64,000 nucleotides of DNA from Rhodocyclaceae bacterium (GTDB lineage Bacteria; Pseudomonadota; Gammaproteobacteria; Burkholderiales; Rhodocyclaceae), in the NCBI GenBank assembly GCA_003963315.1, contig RXJP01000016.1:62001-126000 (forward strand). Reading direction: 5' to 3'. Under the pieces are notes generated by a model. The model was not told the DNA's origin and made no database searches. It saw only the letters and a list, made by a program, of their open reading frames with translations. The first letter of the stretch is position 1. Every line of letters begins with the position of its first letter. This document shows positions 1,522 to 14,765 of the stretch, piece after piece. The translations under genes were made by a program, and so were the position numbers.

Positions 1522-2028
1522 TCAACCGCCCGCCGGTTTCCCCTGGGGGGTGCCCGCCAGGCCGGTCAGCACGATCACGCCCTCTGAAGTGCGCTGCGAG
1601 CCGATGGCGTTGGATTCCAGGCCTTCGCTGTATTCCAATATCTTGAAATCCGAAAACCCCCCGGCATTGGCCAATTCCTTGGCCCGCCGGTTGAACACCA
1701 CGCGCGCCTCGCCGGCGCCGCCGGCGTAATAGCGCTTCATCTTGAGGGACAGCATGTAGTGGTTGTCCGCGAACTTGGCTTCCCGGATTTGCCAATTGGG
1801 CGCCAGGGGATCCACCACGTAATAGGCGATGGCGCCCACACCGCCCCAGTACAAAAGTTTTTCCAGGCTTACGGTGTAGGTGGGTGTCAGGGCGATATTC
1901 GTGGCCGGCACGATGGCGCCGCCCTTGGGGTAGGTTCCCGCTGCATTGGTGGAGCTGGTGAGGCTTCCCAGACTTTCGCAACCGGCCAGCAGCGCGGCAC
2001 CGAGCAGGAGGACGAGGCGCAGCTTCAT
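1522..2028 (-). CDS. Putative lipoprotein, translationally coupled to flgL
   Basis: Starting at ATG 2028: MKLRLVLLLGAALLAGCESLGS, signal peptide with LAGC lipobox; 1 bp after flgL stop. Confidence 0.8.
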   Translation of the reverse strand: MKLRLVLLLGAALLAGCESLGSLTSSTNAAGTYPKGGAIVPATNIALTPTYTVSLEKLLYWGGVGAIAYYVVDPLAPNWQIREAKFADNHYMLSLKMKRYYAGGAGEARVVFNRRAKELANAGGFSDFKILEYSEGLESNAIGSQRTSEGVIVLTGLAGTPQGKPAGG

Positions 2029-2029
2029 A

Positions 2030-4912
2030 TCAGAGATAGTTGAACAGGTTGAGATTGGATATTTTGGCAAAGGACTGCTGCGCCGCCTGCAATTCAGTCT
2101 GCTGCCGCATCAGGTCGGTAATGGCCTTGGAGTAATCCAGATCCTGAATACCGGACAAGGCCTGCTGGTATTGCAAGTCGAGATTGGAGCCGACGCTGTC
2201 CAGGCTGTCCAGTTCGTTCAGGGCCGAACCCACCGATGCCCGGGTCTTGCTCACATTATCCTGGGCCTGGCCCAGGTTGGTCAGGGCCTGGCCCGTCATA
2301 TTGGTCAGATAGTTGTTGCCCGTGGTGCCGATGGGTTTCGGATCTTCCAGGGCGGTGACCAGATTGGCGATGGTGTCGAAAACGCTTTGCGTGGTGGACG
2401 GCTTGATGGTGAACACATCGCCGCTGGCGGGCGGGCCATCGATCTTCACGGAAAAGCCGAGGTCGGTCACCGTGGTGGGCGGCGATCCCGCCACCGGGAT
2501 GTTGAGGCCAGAGAAGTTGATGGTGTCCCCGGGGCTGAATTTATGGGTGTAGGTCGTACCTGCCCCGCCGGCCACGGAAGTGCTGTTGGTGAACAGGGAC
2601 TTCTCCGTGGTGACATCCACCAGATCGTAGTACATCTGGTTCGGCGTAGTGCTGGTGTCATTCCAGAACCGCACTTCCAGATTGCGGGAGTTGGCGGGAT
2701 TGTTCCACTTGGACACATCCAGCACCTCTCCCGTGCCGACGATGGCGCTGCCGGTATTCACCGCGGCGGCGGTTTTATCCCCGGTCAGGAAATAGCCGTT
2801 GCCCAAGCCGTCGGTGCTTGCCTTGATGGTGAAGGCGTCGCCGGTCACCGGCGTACCGCTCACCGTCACCAGGGCGCCGAAATTGAAGGCGGCTTCAGCG
2901 GGAGACCCCTGCCCGCCGGCGCTGGCGATGTTGATGGCCTGGCCCGGTACATAGACGTGGTTGAAGGTATTGCCGGCGCCGCCGGCGGCGGAGGCATTGC
3001 CGTTGAAGAGGGAATGGCCGGTCGTCGCATCCACCAGATCGTAGAAGGTCGTTCCCGGCGCTGCGGTGACGCCAGCCGTGGCGGCAGGCGTGCCGAACAG
3101 GGTGGCCAGGCCGGTGTTGCCGCCCACGGCGGTGAGGTTCACGCTGGAGCCGAAACCCGCGGCGCTGGAAGTCACGACCAAGTGGTTGGATGCATCCAGG
3201 CTGACGGTGGCCCCCGCCGGCAGCACGCCCTGGATGGCCGTTACCAGGGAAGCGGCCGTGGTATAGGTGCCTGTGGGAACCGTCACGGTGGTGGCGGGAT
3301 TGGCGCCATCGAGGGAAATATTGAACTGGTTGTTGGCGGCGGTGAGCGTCAGCGGCGTCGCGGGGGCGGGCGGTGTGGCGGCGGCGGGAATGGGAACGGC
3401 CGTTCCTACCGACTGTCCTTGGGTCGTGGTGCCGCCGACGGTATCCACCCAGAAACGCACTTCCAGATTGCCGCTGTTGGCGGACTGCTGCCAGGCGGCG
3501 GGGTTGTTCACCAAGCCCTTGTCGATGGTGGCGTCGGCGTGCCAGGCGGCCACCGTCTTGGGCGTCACGGCGATCTGGCCGTTCTGCGGCCGGGCGATGC
3601 TGAACACGTCGCCGGATGCGGGGACGCCGGTAAAGGTCATGGTGGCGCCGAAACCCGTTGCGCCGCTGCCGGTGGTGTAGGCGGCGTTGAACCCGGACAG
3701 GCTGATGGGAACGCCGCTGGCATAGGCATGGGTGAAGGTGTTGCCCGCGCCGCCGGCCGTGGAGGCCGAGTTGGAGAACAGGGAATTGCCGGTGGTGGTA
3801 TCCACCAGGTCGTAGAACACGCTGCCGGGGGCGCTGGTGCTGCCCTGGGCATAGGAAGGCGTGCCCGCCAGGGCGGCATAGCCGGTGTTGCCGGACACGG
3901 CGCCCAGTTGGATGCTGGAGCCATTGCCTGCGGTGTTCGACGTGACGACCAATTGGTTGTTGCCATTCAGGCTCGCCGTCACCCCGGCTGGCAAAGCCCC
4001 TTGGATCGCGGTCAACAAGGCACCCGCCGAGTTGTAGGTGGCGGCGGGTATGGTCACGGTTTGCGCCGCACCGCCGTTCACCCGCAAGGTGAACTGGTCG
4101 TTGCTGCCGCCGGTGATGGTCAATCCCGGGCCGGCTGTCGCCGCCGCCAGATCCACGCTGCCGGCGCCGACGCCGTTGGTCACGACGCTGCCGCCGGCGG
4201 TGTCGGTCCAGAAGCGAGCCTCCAGGGCGCCGCTGTTCACCGGGTCGTTCCAGTCCGCCGCGGTGGTGACGGCAGCCGACGCCAGGCTGACGGCGACGGT
4301 ATTCGCCGTCTTGGCCGTTTGCATCCCGGTCTGGAACGTGCCGTTGCCGTTGCGAATCTTCATGAAGATATCGTCACCGGGAGCGCTGATGCCCAATTGC
4401 CGGGACGAGGACACTTGCAATTGGCGGATGCCGCTGTCGCCGCCGTACAGCACGCCGTTCTCGACGCTACCGCCGAAGGGACGGCTGCTGTCCTGGAAAC
4501 CCGCGAACAGGTAGCGGCCCGAACCGTCGGTGCTGTTGGCCAGGCCCACCAGTTCGGAGAAGCGGGCGCGCAGCTCGGTGGCGATACTCTTCTTGTCCAA
4601 ATCCGAAAGCGCCGCATCCCCGGCCTGGACCGCCAGTTCCTTGACCCGGGTCAGTAGGTCGGTCACCGACCCCAACTGGTTATCCACCAGTCCCAGGGCG
4701 CTCTTGGCATCAGTACGGGTAGACGCCTGGCTGCTGTTGATGTTCTGGGCCTGGCTCAAATCCAGCGCCCGGGCGGCACCGACCGGATCATCCGAGGGCG
4801 TGAGGATGCGACGCCCACTGGAGAGCTGCTGCTGGGTACGCAGCAAGTCGGAGGTACGGTTCTGGATGCCCCCCGACCCGGCGTTAAAAATCATCCCTGT
4901 ACTGACGCGCAT
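2030..4912 (-). CDS. flgL: Flagellar hook-associated protein 3 (HAP3), greatly expanded (960 aa)
   Basis: N-term MRVSTGMIFNAGSGGIQNRTSDLLRTQQQLSSGRRILTPSDDPVGAARAL and C-term flagellin-like helix; large repeat-containing insert. Confidence 0.93.
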   Translation of the reverse strand: MRVSTGMIFNAGSGGIQNRTSDLLRTQQQLSSGRRILTPSDDPVGAARALDLSQAQNINSSQASTRTDAKSALGLVDNQLGSVTDLLTRVKELAVQAGDAALSDLDKKSIATELRARFSELVGLANSTDGSGRYLFAGFQDSSRPFGGSVENGVLYGGDSGIRQLQVSSSRQLGISAPGDDIFMKIRNGNGTFQTGMQTAKTANTVAVSLASAAVTTAADWNDPVNSGALEARFWTDTAGGSVVTNGVGAGSVDLAAATAGPGLTITGGSNDQFTLRVNGGAAQTVTIPAATYNSAGALLTAIQGALPAGVTASLNGNNQLVVTSNTAGNGSSIQLGAVSGNTGYAALAGTPSYAQGSTSAPGSVFYDLVDTTTGNSLFSNSASTAGGAGNTFTHAYASGVPISLSGFNAAYTTGSGATGFGATMTFTGVPASGDVFSIARPQNGQIAVTPKTVAAWHADATIDKGLVNNPAAWQQSANSGNLEVRFWVDTVGGTTTQGQSVGTAVPIPAAATPPAPATPLTLTAANNQFNISLDGANPATTVTVPTGTYTTAASLVTAIQGVLPAGATVSLDASNHLVVTSSAAGFGSSVNLTAVGGNTGLATLFGTPAATAGVTAAPGTTFYDLVDATTGHSLFNGNASAAGGAGNTFNHVYVPGQAINIASAGGQGSPAEAAFNFGALVTVSGTPVTGDAFTIKASTDGLGNGYFLTGDKTAAAVNTGSAIVGTGEVLDVSKWNNPANSRNLEVRFWNDTSTTPNQMYYDLVDVTTEKSLFTNSTSVAGGAGTTYTHKFSPGDTINFSGLNIPVAGSPPTTVTDLGFSVKIDGPPASGDVFTIKPSTTQSVFDTIANLVTALEDPKPIGTTGNNYLTNMTGQALTNLGQAQDNVSKTRASVGSALNELDSLDSVGSNLDLQYQQALSGIQDLDYSKAITDLMRQQTELQAAQQSFAKISNLNLFNYL

Positions 4913-4936: not shown

Positions 4937-7753
4937 TCAGTGACCCAAACTGGTCAGCAGGTCGAACAGCTTGCTGGATATATCGACAATCTTGGCCGAG
5001 GCTTGATAGGCCTGCTGATAGCGGATCAGGTTGGCTGCCTCCTCGTCCAGGTTCACCCCGGAGAGCGATTGCACGGCGGTTTCCCCCTGGGTGACGAGAT
5101 TTTCCTGGGCGGTTTGGGTAACAGACAGTTCCCGGGCCTTGTTGCCCACCTGGCTGACGATCTGCGAATAAGCCGACTGGTAGCTGGCCGTCCCCCCCAG
5201 CAGGGTATTGGCGGTTTGCAAGCCGCCCATCGCCAGCAGGTTGCGGTTATCACCCGAGGCCGAAGGATTGGGGCTCACGGTGAAGGTATCGCCATCCACG
5301 GGGGCGCCACCGATCTGGAAGCTGAGCCCGTTGAAGGACACCGTCGCCCCCGCTGTGTAGGGCACGTAGTCGGCGCCGGCCACGGTGGGATCCATGGGGT
5401 AGGTCTTCATGCTGCCGTCGGCCTGGGTCACGGTGACCGTGGTACCCACCGGGAATCCGGTCAAGCGGTCCGGCAAGCCGCTGGCAGCGCTGCCCTGCTT
5501 GAAGGTGAGGGGAATATCCGCTGTCGGTAGGCTGGAAGGTGTCTTGACGAAAAAAGACAGGGGCGTGATCTGCTGGTTGTTGGCCAATTGCCCGCTGACC
5601 CGCACAGTCACCCCGTTGTAATTCACGGCGACGCCAGTAGTGGGCAGGGTCACGGGGGGTTGCGGCACCTGGGTCGTGCCGTTGACGATCACCACACTCG
5701 CCAATACGTTGGGCGGCGTGGCGAGATCGGTCAGCGTCACCGTAGCGCCGGCGGGGAAGCCGCTCAGGGTCTGGGTGGCGGCACTGTAGGTCAGGGTATT
5801 GGCGGCGGAAGCGTTACCCGGGCTGTATTCCGCCTTGACCATGGGGTTGGTGCTGTTCCCGGTAATGACCTGGTTCGGGCCGACGACGAAGGTATCCCCA
5901 TTGGCGGGCGTATTGGCGATCTGGAAACTGGTGCCCTGAACGCTGATGATCGCCCCGGCCTGGAAAGGGATGCGCTGGGTGGCGCTGCTCACGTCGAACA
6001 CAGTGCTGCCCACCTGCACCCGGGCGCCGATGGGGAAGCCCACCAGGGCATTGGCGGCGGCATCGTAGGTGAGTTTGAAATTGGCGGTCAGCCCGATGGT
6101 GCTGCTGTCCACGCTGCCGGTGCTGATGGTTCCCGTGCCGCTGTTGGCGGAACCCACCGAGGTGCGGATAGGGACCGCGGCGGCAATGTTGTTCACATCG
6201 TTGATGGCCACGGCCATTTGTTTGGCGGCATCCCGGGTGGGACGAATCAGGAAGCTGTCGCCAGGATTGGCCGCCCCATTGATGTTGAGGGTGAACCCCT
6301 GGGGTCCCGCCGCCACCATCAAGGATTGCAAGGCCTGGGCCTGGGTGCCGCCCGAGGCGGTCCAGGTCACGTTGTCGGACAACCGGGTCAGGGTCACGCC
6401 GCCATTGGTGAAGGTGAGACGGTAATCGCTATCGGTCAGGGATTGCAGATTCGACGCGGAGGAATCCAGTATCGCATTGCCGGTGTTGGTGCCATAGGTG
6501 GAAATCCGTTTGCCTGCGGTATTCGCCGGCTGGACCAGGAAAGTATCCCCCACCGACGGCTGGCCGGAGGTGAGGGAAATCTTGACGCCGTCCAGGGTCT
6601 GGGGCAATTGGGAAAAGGTGCCCAGATTGGTGTTGTCGGACAGGCGCGTCACGGAGTAGCCGCTGCTGCCGTACACGACCTTGTAGTCGCTGACGGTAAT
6701 GTTGGCCGAAATCGCGCCGGTGCCCGTATTGGTGGCGGCGCCGACCACCGTGGACGTCACCGGCTTGAAGAAATCCCCGCCCATGGCCCCGGTCAGATCC
6801 TCCCCCAGGTGATGCTGGGCATTGAAGGTGGTGGCGAACGTCAGGGCGATACGGCCCAGGGCATTCTGGGCGCTGTTCAGGGTTTCGCTACGGAACTGGA
6901 GCAGGCCGCTGAGATTGCCGCCGGCAATCAGGCTCTCGGGCAGTTGGATGGTTTGTCCGCTGGGGGAGGTCAGGGCGATACCCAATTCGCTCATGTCTTC
7001 CGGCGACGGTACCGCCTTGAGCTGGTAGGTTTGCGAGCCGGCTACCAGGGGCTGGCCGTTGCCGAAGAAAACGCTGTAGGTGCCGTCCGACTCCAGTTGT
7101 GTGCTGATGCGCACTTCCTTGTTGAGCTGGCTGAGCAGGTTGTCCCGTTGGTCGAGCAGGTCGTTGGCAGGCTGGCTGTCGCCGGCGGCCTGGGCCAGGA
7201 CGATGCGCTGGTTGATGTCCGCCACCTGCTTGACCAGGGAATTGATGGTGCCGACTTCGGTGGTGATCTGGGTATTGACCCCTTCGCGCAAGCCGCTGAG
7301 CTGCTGGTCCAGGGACTGGAACCGGGCCACCAGGGCCTGGGCCGAGGACAGTACGGCTTGGCGCGCAGGCACCGAAGAAGGCGTGGAACCCAGGGTCTGC
7401 AAGGACGAGAAGAAGCTGTCCATACCCGGGCTGAGGCCGGCGGAAGCATCGGCCAACAGGTTGTCGATCTGGCTGATCTGGTCGGAATAGGTCTGCAACT
7501 GGGCGACGTTGGTCTGGGCCGTCAGCACCTGGTTGTTGAGGAAGGAACTGTAAATCCGTTTGACGGTATCGACGTTCGTCCCGCTGCCGAGAAAGCCGCT
7601 CCCGGAAAAGAAGGGCGTGTTGGTGGTCTGGACGATGGTCTGCCGGTTGTAGCCCGGCGTGGACGCGTTGGAAATATTGTGGCTGGCCGTCTGGATGCCC
7701 ACTTGCGCGGCATTCAATCCCGATACGGCAATATTGAGAACGCTGGATCCCAT
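4937..7753 (-). CDS. flgK: Flagellar hook-associated protein 1 (HAP1), expanded (938 aa)
   Basis: N-term MGSSVLNIAVSGLNAAQVGIQTASHNISNASTPGYNRQ; C-term SGVNLDEEAANLIRYQQAYQASAKIVD. Confidence 0.96.
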   Translation of the reverse strand: MGSSVLNIAVSGLNAAQVGIQTASHNISNASTPGYNRQTIVQTTNTPFFSGSGFLGSGTNVDTVKRIYSSFLNNQVLTAQTNVAQLQTYSDQISQIDNLLADASAGLSPGMDSFFSSLQTLGSTPSSVPARQAVLSSAQALVARFQSLDQQLSGLREGVNTQITTEVGTINSLVKQVADINQRIVLAQAAGDSQPANDLLDQRDNLLSQLNKEVRISTQLESDGTYSVFFGNGQPLVAGSQTYQLKAVPSPEDMSELGIALTSPSGQTIQLPESLIAGGNLSGLLQFRSETLNSAQNALGRIALTFATTFNAQHHLGEDLTGAMGGDFFKPVTSTVVGAATNTGTGAISANITVSDYKVVYGSSGYSVTRLSDNTNLGTFSQLPQTLDGVKISLTSGQPSVGDTFLVQPANTAGKRISTYGTNTGNAILDSSASNLQSLTDSDYRLTFTNGGVTLTRLSDNVTWTASGGTQAQALQSLMVAAGPQGFTLNINGAANPGDSFLIRPTRDAAKQMAVAINDVNNIAAAVPIRTSVGSANSGTGTISTGSVDSSTIGLTANFKLTYDAAANALVGFPIGARVQVGSTVFDVSSATQRIPFQAGAIISVQGTSFQIANTPANGDTFVVGPNQVITGNSTNPMVKAEYSPGNASAANTLTYSAATQTLSGFPAGATVTLTDLATPPNVLASVVIVNGTTQVPQPPVTLPTTGVAVNYNGVTVRVSGQLANNQQITPLSFFVKTPSSLPTADIPLTFKQGSAASGLPDRLTGFPVGTTVTVTQADGSMKTYPMDPTVAGADYVPYTAGATVSFNGLSFQIGGAPVDGDTFTVSPNPSASGDNRNLLAMGGLQTANTLLGGTASYQSAYSQIVSQVGNKARELSVTQTAQENLVTQGETAVQSLSGVNLDEEAANLIRYQQAYQASAKIVDISSKLFDLLTSLGH

Positions 7754-12455: not shown

Positions 12456-14765
12456 TTAGCGCAGGTTCACCAAAGTCTGGAGCACTTGGTCCAGGGTTTT
12501 GATGGTCTGGGCATTAGCCTGGTAAGCCCGTTGCTGGGTGATCATGTTCACCAGTTCGGCGGTCAGGTCCACGTTGGACTCTTCCACCGCCGCGGCCTGG
12601 AGCACGCCCAGGCTGCCTTGCCCCGGCGTACCGGGAATCGGCTGGCCGGACTCGGCGGTTTCCGCCCACTGGTTGCCACCCAGGGATTGCAGTCCGTTGT
12701 TGTTGTTGAATTTCACCAACACCAACTGCCCCATGTTGCGGGATTTGCCGTTGGAATAACGGCCAAGGATGGTGCCGTCGGAGGACACTGAAATCGCCGA
12801 GAGCCGACCCGAGGTGAAACCATCCTGCAGGAGCTGGTTCACCCCGAACACCACGCCGTACTGGGTGGATCCGGTGAAATCCAGGGAGAAGGCCAGGGGG
12901 GAGGTCGCGCCGTTGTTTAGGGTATAGCTCTGGGTCAGCGGCATTGCCGTGGTCAACACGCCGGAGGTGTTGAACTGAAGCGCAATGGGGCCCGTTTGCC
13001 CGTTGCCGTCCAGGGTCGTGTAAGCCTGCCAACGATTACCCTCGGACGTCTTGACGAAATAGATGTTGAGGTTGTGGGGGTTGCCCAGGGAGTCGTACAC
13101 CGTCTGGGACGTGGACGAGGTGTAGCTCAAGGTATTGGTGGGGCTGAAATTGTCGCCACCGCTGGTATAGGTCGGGCCCGTACCAGCGGTAACCACCGGG
13201 GTTGCGCCAAGCAAGGCGGTGGCGGCCGTACCGCCAGCCAAAGTGACGGATGATCCTGTACCGGCGCTACCGCTGGAGGTGATCACCAAGTTGCCGGTGC
13301 CGTTGGTGCCGACAGTGACGCTCTTGCCGGAAGTGCCCAGGGCGGTATTGATGGCAGTCTGAATAACACCGACCACCGGCGGCACGGCAGCGGGATTGCC
13401 TGCGAGTTGGGCAGCGGTGTAATTACCGGCAGGAATGGTGACATTGGCGGTCACGCCATCCACAACCACCTGGAAAGTGTCATTCACCCCCTGGGTAATG
13501 GTGGTGGCGGCCAGCACATTGGACCCTGTCAAGCTGGCGGCAGTGGAGGAGGTCGGCCCGGTGGCGCCGGCCACCACGGAAGGCGCGGCGCTGAACAGCG
13601 AAGCTGCCGCCGAACCGCCCAAGGTATTGACGCTGGAGGAAACGCCCGTGGAATTGGAAGTGATCTGGAGTTGATTACCGGCGGCCACGGAAACCGTCAC
13701 CTGACCGGCCTGGGAGGCCGCGATCAAGGCGGTATTGATGGCATTCTGGATGCTGGTGGCCAAGGCCTGGATGGTGCCGTAGGTTTGGGTGCCCAAGCTG
13801 GCGGTGGTGACCGTCGCACCACCATCCACTTTCAAAGACAGCACATCGTTGGTTCCCGAGGTGATGGTCATCGGGAACGACAGGGAGGTACCGACACCGG
13901 TCAATGTGCCGTGGGTTGCGGAGCTCAGGATAGTCGGCACGGAGCTGCCGCCATTGAGCACCACGGACGATCCGGAACCCTGGCTGCCGACGGTGCCGAC
14001 GCTATCGGACTGGATCTTCAGTTGCCCGGCAGTATCCACCGACACCGTCACGGCGGCGCCAGAACTACCCAGGGCGGAATTGATCAGGGACTGGACGGTG
14101 GTGGCCAGGTTGCCCTGGGTGTAGGCGCCAGGGGGAATGGTGATGTTGGCGGTAATACCGTCGACGGCGAGTTGCAGGATGTCGTTGACGCCGGTGGTGA
14201 TGGTGGTCGTCCCCCCCAACACGAGGTTGCCGCTCAATGTCCCCGGGGTCAAGGCGGTAGGCGGTGTCGCCCGGGAATCCAGGTTGAACTGAATCTGGCT
14301 CGCGGTGGTGACTTGCGGGGCGATGTTGCTGTTGTTGACCTGGAGATCGACGATATTGCCGGGAACGATGTTGCCGGTGGCATCCGCCGTGTATCCCGTT
14401 ACATGCAGCCCGCTGGCATTGACAATGAAGCCGTTCTTATCCAACTGGAACTGGCCGTTCCGGGTGTAGCTGATGATGCCGTTGTTGGACAGGCGGAACA
14501 TACCCGCGCCGTTGATGGCCATGTCCAGGGGATTGCTGGTGGACGTGATATTGCCCTGGGTGAATTGCTGGGCCACCGTGGACAAGGAAGCGCCGATACC
14601 GATCTGGCTGCCGCCGCCGCCCGCCAAGGAGGAGGCGAAAACGTCGGCGAACTCCGCGTTGGCCGCCTTGAAACCCACAGTACCGGAGTTGGCCACGTTA
14701 TTGCCGATGGCTTCAAGCGCTTTTGAGGAGGCGGCGAGACCGCTTAACCCTTGTTGAAAACCCAT
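12456..14765 (-). CDS. flgE: Flagellar hook protein FlgE, expanded (769 aa)
   Basis: MGFQQGLSGLAASSKALEAIGNNVANSGTVGFKAANAEFADVF; C-term rod/hook motif; three tandem inserted modules. Confidence 0.96.
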   Translation of the reverse strand: MGFQQGLSGLAASSKALEAIGNNVANSGTVGFKAANAEFADVFASSLAGGGGSQIGIGASLSTVAQQFTQGNITSTSNPLDMAINGAGMFRLSNNGIISYTRNGQFQLDKNGFIVNASGLHVTGYTADATGNIVPGNIVDLQVNNSNIAPQVTTASQIQFNLDSRATPPTALTPGTLSGNLVLGGTTTITTGVNDILQLAVDGITANITIPPGAYTQGNLATTVQSLINSALGSSGAAVTVSVDTAGQLKIQSDSVGTVGSQGSGSSVVLNGGSSVPTILSSATHGTLTGVGTSLSFPMTITSGTNDVLSLKVDGGATVTTASLGTQTYGTIQALATSIQNAINTALIAASQAGQVTVSVAAGNQLQITSNSTGVSSSVNTLGGSAAASLFSAAPSVVAGATGPTSSTAASLTGSNVLAATTITQGVNDTFQVVVDGVTANVTIPAGNYTAAQLAGNPAAVPPVVGVIQTAINTALGTSGKSVTVGTNGTGNLVITSSGSAGTGSSVTLAGGTAATALLGATPVVTAGTGPTYTSGGDNFSPTNTLSYTSSTSQTVYDSLGNPHNLNIYFVKTSEGNRWQAYTTLDGNGQTGPIALQFNTSGVLTTAMPLTQSYTLNNGATSPLAFSLDFTGSTQYGVVFGVNQLLQDGFTSGRLSAISVSSDGTILGRYSNGKSRNMGQLVLVKFNNNNGLQSLGGNQWAETAESGQPIPGTPGQGSLGVLQAAAVEESNVDLTAELVNMITQQRAYQANAQTIKTLDQVLQTLVNLR

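Follow-up and report, generated by a model that had tools for sequence, protein, structure and literature searches.

The window, by which we mean the entire 64,000-nucleotide stretch of Rhodocyclaceae bacterium DNA that was analysed, carries at positions 2030-4912 of its minus strand a gene encoding FlgL, the hook-filament junction protein. The 960-aa product scores 302.8 bits against NCBIfam TIGR02550 (cut-off 127.2), and its flagellin-like helical ends are recognized by Pfam PF00669 (Flagellin_N, aa 3-138; 81.4 bits, cut-off 26.6) and PF00700 (Flagellin_C, aa 877-959; 27.4 bits, cut-off 23). These matches lie within the N-terminal helical part of D0/D1 (aa 1-185, positions 4358-4912) and the C-terminal helical part of D1/D0 (aa 845-960, positions 2033-2380), respectively. 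The gene adjoins flgK, which lies directly upstream on the same strand (4937-7753) and encodes 938 aa with several D2/D3-type outer modules that match PF22638, PF21158 (three stretches) and PF21159 (three stretches). The 769-aa hook protein FlgE is encoded further along the minus strand (12456-14765). A follow-up scan of the genome's contigs returned one flgL locus only; the gene is present as a single copy in this genome, and the remaining proteins with a Flagellin_N domain are the two flagellins. Downstream of flgL, a 182-aa open reading frame (1522-2070, minus strand) has a signal-like start with LLAGC and possibly encodes a lipoprotein; it had no match in NCBIfam.

Between its helical ends, FlgL is built from three repeat units. 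Because a BLASTP comparison of the whole protein with itself returned only the trivial self-match, the units were compared separately. The motif W...FWxDT occurs at aa 221, 474 and 736, YDLVD at aa 367, 624 and 762, and GDxFxI at aa 434, 691 and 831, so that the motifs together span positions 4252-2405 of the window. On the basis of the motif positions, core comparisons and profiles, the unit 1 core consists of a first part at aa 218-239 (4196-4261) and a second part at aa 364-446 (3575-3823), the unit 2 core consists of aa 471-492 (3437-3502) and aa 621-703 (2804-3052), and the unit 3 core runs uninterrupted from aa 733 to 840 (2393-2716). With the inserts removed, the cores are 48.5-49.5% identical in pairwise comparisons (E 5e-37 to 1e-32), with unit 3 being 49.5% identical to cores 1 and 2. 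Their Smith-Waterman scores of 241-268 compare with maxima of 53-73 for shuffled sequences (z 31-39), confirming the three repeats that the initial annotation had read from the sequence and placing the repeat signal well above background. The cores of units 1 and 2 are each interrupted at the same point. Insert 1 (aa 240-363, 3824-4195) contains a profile-defined module at aa 263-360 (E 1e-37), and insert 2 (aa 493-620, 3053-3436) contains the module at aa 520-617; the two inserts are 50% identical to one another (E 3e-37, z 25). At the corresponding point unit 3 reads FWNDTSTTPNQMYYDLVD, a link of about 8 residues as compared with about 125 residues in units 1 and 2. The annotation was thus also right that the block is placed at one point, between FWxDT and YDLVD, and only in units 1 and 2.

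The repeat probably also takes in a linker of about 35 residues that precedes each core. The linker preceding unit 3 (aa 700-736, 2705-2815) matches the sequence before unit 1 as well as the sequence before single-unit D2 domains in relatives, and the shared pattern GNGxFxTG...KTA...W gives a score of 64 between the linkers of units 1 and 3 that was reached by 0 of 2000 shuffles. Units 1 and 3 show this likeness clearly; the linker of unit 2 resembles the others only weakly (p 0.02-0.07). At the DNA level the repeat copies are only about 61% identical, and third codon positions match in 52% of the columns when units 1 and 2 are aligned, indicating that the duplication is old and is neither a recent event nor an echo of assembly. 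That 52% figure likewise gives no sign that gene conversion has recently acted between the first two units of the window's FlgL, a possibility that we considered. The assembly is in 168 contigs, which might raise the concern that faulty assembly or sequencing produced the repeats. We regard this as having a negligible chance of being correct, however, as the copies have diverged too far to be mistaken for one another, no stop interrupts the frame, and four other genomes in three other genera have the identical architecture.

The repeated core is probably an ordinary D2-type domain. In published structures the D2 of FlgL is an accessory beta-sandwich (PMC6155364) that faces outward at the junction and is missing from some species (PMC6155364, PMC12221982). 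A profile of the core matches solved FlgL chains weakly and over its conserved end only (7c7z, E 0.03; 5yti, E 0.06; 5ziz, E 0.11), and it matches the FlgK structure 4UT1 with E 0.0019 over the conserved C-terminal part. Two AlphaFold models, built from alignments that comprised 3 and 6 rows of window sequence and nothing else, have mean pLDDT values of 53 and 56, which are too low for claims about the fold, and structure searches with the FlgL models gave no PDB match at E <= 0.001. For the insert, strands and one helix are predicted in a strand-helix-strand order with pLDDT 57-82 in the best blocks and with no confident PDB match, and the module profile found nothing among the PDB sequences.

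The inserts had initially been described as flagellin-IN-like. This holds as a partial similarity: Pfam PF07196 (Flagellin_IN) matches the strand-helix-strand part of insert 1 with 18.0 bits when the whole protein is searched and 20.6 bits when the module is taken alone. It does not hold as a family assignment, as both scores fall below the cut-off of 22.7 and PF07196 is detected in only 1 of 13 homologous inserts, leaving the other 12 undetected. Its homologues in FliD, FlgE and FlgK define the module better. At E <= 0.01 the module profile finds exactly six copies in the bacterium's own 3.77-Mb genome, two in FlgL, one in FliD and three in FlgE, the last of which lie in tandem at positions 13176-14240 (minus strand; E 4e-14, 5e-11 and 2e-10). 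No copy was detected with this profile in the window's FlgK. In relatives, FlgK may contain as many as three copies, and FlgE and FliD carry further ones; for example, the open frames of flgK in G146 and G180 (L062 and L063) encode about 1100 aa with three consecutive copies, and that of G022 (L067) contains two. In a tree of the modules, copies from the same kind of host protein mostly group together, with low support for the deep branches, suggesting that they are for the most part old residents. The same pattern led us to set aside a recent exchange of modules between proteins.

Of 398 genomes searched in the family Rhodocyclaceae, 344 gave a FlgL match, and the architectures of the relatives' proteins were assigned with profiles of the core and the insert. 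They form a graded series from about 300 to 960 aa in which occupied and unoccupied sites are found in otherwise alignable proteins. Some relatives have a FlgL of about 300 aa with no core unit, and the commonest form has one unit and is about 395-470 aa in length. One unit with a block is found in five proteins of 540-559 aa (G079, G123, G141, G191 and G234), and three units with no block in another five of 693-704 aa (G017, G022, G100, G105 and G151). In two three-unit proteins of 805-812 aa (G093 and G180), unit 1 is the only one with a block. The layout of the window's FlgL (G000), with blocks in units 1 and 2, is shared with four other Rhodocyclaceae genomes in three other genera (G029, G146, G154 and G210), and these five proteins are 914-960 aa in length. 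The insertion point is identical throughout, after FWxD and before YYDLVD, and the profile detected a module in unit 3 in none of the twelve three-unit proteins. One unit is the norm for FlgL in this family, a point that, like the D2-type identity of the core, goes beyond the initial annotation. In a class-wide search of 369 genomes at E <= 1e-14 the core profile matched only the bacterium's own genome, indicating that outside the family the sequence has diverged too far for that threshold.

The twelve three-unit proteins form one group in a tree of the D0/D1 regions (support 96/92). Their cores sort mainly by position, with unit 3 cores together at 99/94, unit 2 cores at 98/93 and unit 1 cores at 98/96 for 10 of the 12, suggesting that the triplication preceded the spread of the three-unit group. 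Unit 3 cores group with several single-unit proteins (95/88), so that unit 3 is probably the original FlgL domain; of the three copies it is the nearest to the lone D2 found in most relatives. The two unit 1 cores that depart from this order are the window's own, which is not placed among the other unit 1 cores, and that of G105, which falls among the unit 2 cores. For much of its extent, the unit 1 core of the G105 gene (L065) shows 76-88% amino acid identity to unit 2 of the same protein, which suggests gene conversion between units in that gene. Together, the two odd placements suggest old exchange between units that has blurred the order.

The inserts have a history of their own. In G146, inserts 1 and 2 are sisters (99/92) and join insert 1 of G180 at 97/87, while the G146 unit 2 core remains among the unit 2 cores, indicating that site 2 acquired a copy of the site 1 block while the surrounding unit kept its own core. 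Forcing all insert 2 copies into one clade was rejected (p-AU 6.6e-5), as was forcing the two-insert proteins into one clade on the D0/D1 tree (p-AU 6e-4); the groups for these tests were named after the trees had been seen, which makes both p-values optimistic. On the tree, site 1 and site 2 each need two changes. The block-free proteins of G017 and G100 branch inside the G146/G180 group, which has the block, indicating that the site-1 module has been lost there and that an empty site is not always the original state. Deep branches of the insert trees are weakly supported.

Outside FlgL, the genome encodes two flagellins of 1008 aa (L170, 695-3721 and 4490-7516, both on the plus strand), on contig G000:C149 about 24-31 kb to the left of the window. 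A giant flagellin has been defined as one of over 1000 aa (PMC6248924), and the organism therefore belongs among the giant flagellin bacteria by that definition. The two genes lie just upstream of fliD, and internal repeats are visible by eye in their products. We compared the lengths of flagellar proteins in 53 Rhodocyclaceae genomes, and FlgL with the largest flagellin in 45 relatives. The two lengths are correlated (Spearman 0.73, n=45), and the correlation persists in phylogenetic contrasts (r 0.54, sign-permutation p 5e-5), these values being based on open reading frame lengths from draft genomes in a sample enriched for large FlgLs and on a tree built from FlgL itself. Leaving out the three-unit group changes the contrasts little (r 0.52, p 6e-4), and inside that group alone the correlation is not significant. 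The same comparison with FlgL gave a weaker relationship for FlgK (r 0.45, p 0.007) and a marginal one for FlgE (r 0.33, p 0.03), both of which fade without the three-unit group, and in the same survey FliD length does not track FlgL length. Median lengths are 981 aa for FlgK and 654 aa for FlgE in the three-unit group, as compared with 671 aa and 451 aa elsewhere. Enlargement of the flagellin, FlgK and FlgE is a further point that the initial annotation did not include.

The explanation that we favor, and consider likely, is one of stepwise expansion, in which D2 was triplicated once, the module came to lie in a loop of the first two copies, and the resulting array fits a thick filament. The exposed D2-type domain of an ordinary FlgL would have been triplicated in one group of Rhodocyclaceae, with the duplicates presumably arising by unequal recombination between repeated D2-coding stretches. 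The module would then have entered site 1 early in the three-unit group and site 2 in the ancestor of the window's lineage, while in G146 site 1 would have been copied independently to site 2 and losses would have occurred elsewhere. In units 1 and 2 the module is predicted to sit in the loop between the first two strands of the domain, and insertions there would be tolerated because that loop presumably points away from the helical D0/D1 core, leaving assembly undisturbed. The enlarged, module-decorated D2 array would form a thick outer collar at the junction, fitting a filament made of flagellins of about 1000 aa. The most likely role of this FlgL would be that of a bulky collar matching the junction to the thick filament, and the collar may stiffen or shield the junction. 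More tentatively, and with a probability that we put somewhat below one half, a single D2 loop may have been the recurrent point of insertion for a module family of hook, junction and cap proteins, with gain, copying and precise loss all taking place there, and with the size of the FlgL outer array being selected to match the flagellin and the thicknesses of junction and filament co-evolving.

Two alternatives concern the history of the inserts. It is conceivable that all three units once carried the module and that the empty site of unit 3 is the scar of a loss, given the loss in G017 and G100 and the existence of single-unit proteins with the module, some of which group near unit 3 (G123, G191 and G234). 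The initial observation that the block is absent from unit 3 stands, but the empty site need not be ancestral. Nevertheless, we consider loss from unit 3 to be quite improbable, as none of the twelve three-unit proteins has a module there, most single-unit proteins lack it, and two gains explain site 2 best. A second alternative is a variant of stepwise expansion that differs only in the donor, with the window's insert 2 having been copied from its own insert 1 rather than from FlgK or another axial protein. The two modules are 54% identical, G146 demonstrates that such copying takes place, and the inserts of three-unit FlgLs all fall on one side of a branch (79/86) that separates them from the FlgK and single-unit inserts. 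However, insert 2 resembles a module in G180 FlgK just as closely (55%), its best match being insert 2 of G029 (61%), and third positions in the inserts match about as well as in the rest of the unit, so that any copying would be old. This balance leaves an internal donor nearly, though not quite, as probable as an external one.

The size correlation can also be read differently, as the tendency of a lineage to gather surface-exposed sequence through neutral drift of outer domains and not as a matching of junction and filament. In favor of this reading, the three-unit group has enlarged FlgE and FlgK as well, the link of these two proteins to FlgL vanishes without that group, and the length of FliD does not follow that of FlgL. 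We nonetheless find it rather unlikely, in that the link to flagellin persists without the three-unit group and in phylogenetic contrasts, and the added sequence consists of conserved modules and not of low-complexity filler.

Elements of this arrangement are known from other systems. Xanthomonas campestris FlgL has an accessory domain inserted in the helical D1 and exposed like the D2 of FlgK, a domain that is absent in B. cereus, but it has a single D2 where the window's FlgL has three tandem units, two of them with an extra module (PMC6155364). The giant flagellins of marine gammaproteobacteria, also about 1000 aa in length and vertically inherited, evolved by duplicating an outer domain and then taking up an additional segment (PMC6248924), and the same sequence of events, tandem duplication and then insertion, can be traced for FlgL through its relatives. 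In that case flagellin itself is the protein concerned, with its insert between two repeats, whereas the window's junction protein has its inserts within the repeated domain. Campylobacter and its relatives have FlgLs of similar size (750-950 aa) together with a hook protein that has extra domains of its own (PMC5691160). B. pseudomallei FlgK (PDB 4UT1) has two outer domains of similar fold, D2 and D3, in tandem; it is a different protein, and the available part of that source reports no inserted module of the type found in the window's FlgL (PMC5691160). Duplication of outer domains with further insertion was therefore known before from the giant flagellins (PMC6248924), as were the very long FlgLs of Campylobacter (PMC5691160). 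We found no description of the present FlgL arrangement in the open-access literature, a scope that takes in few subscription papers. As far as that search extends, what is new is a nested junction protein for which almost every step survives as an intermediate in living relatives, the gain, copying and loss of a module at one site, and the scaling with flagellin.

The diversity of outer domains has been studied mostly in flagellin, and the junction protein FlgL is present in few copies per flagellum. Living relatives display nearly all of the intermediate steps in the multiplication of a FlgL domain, including one site that has been both occupied and vacated. FlgL also scales with flagellin across the family. 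Together these findings make the purpose of its D2 testable, and the prediction is that trimming of FlgL would matter most where the flagellins are giant.
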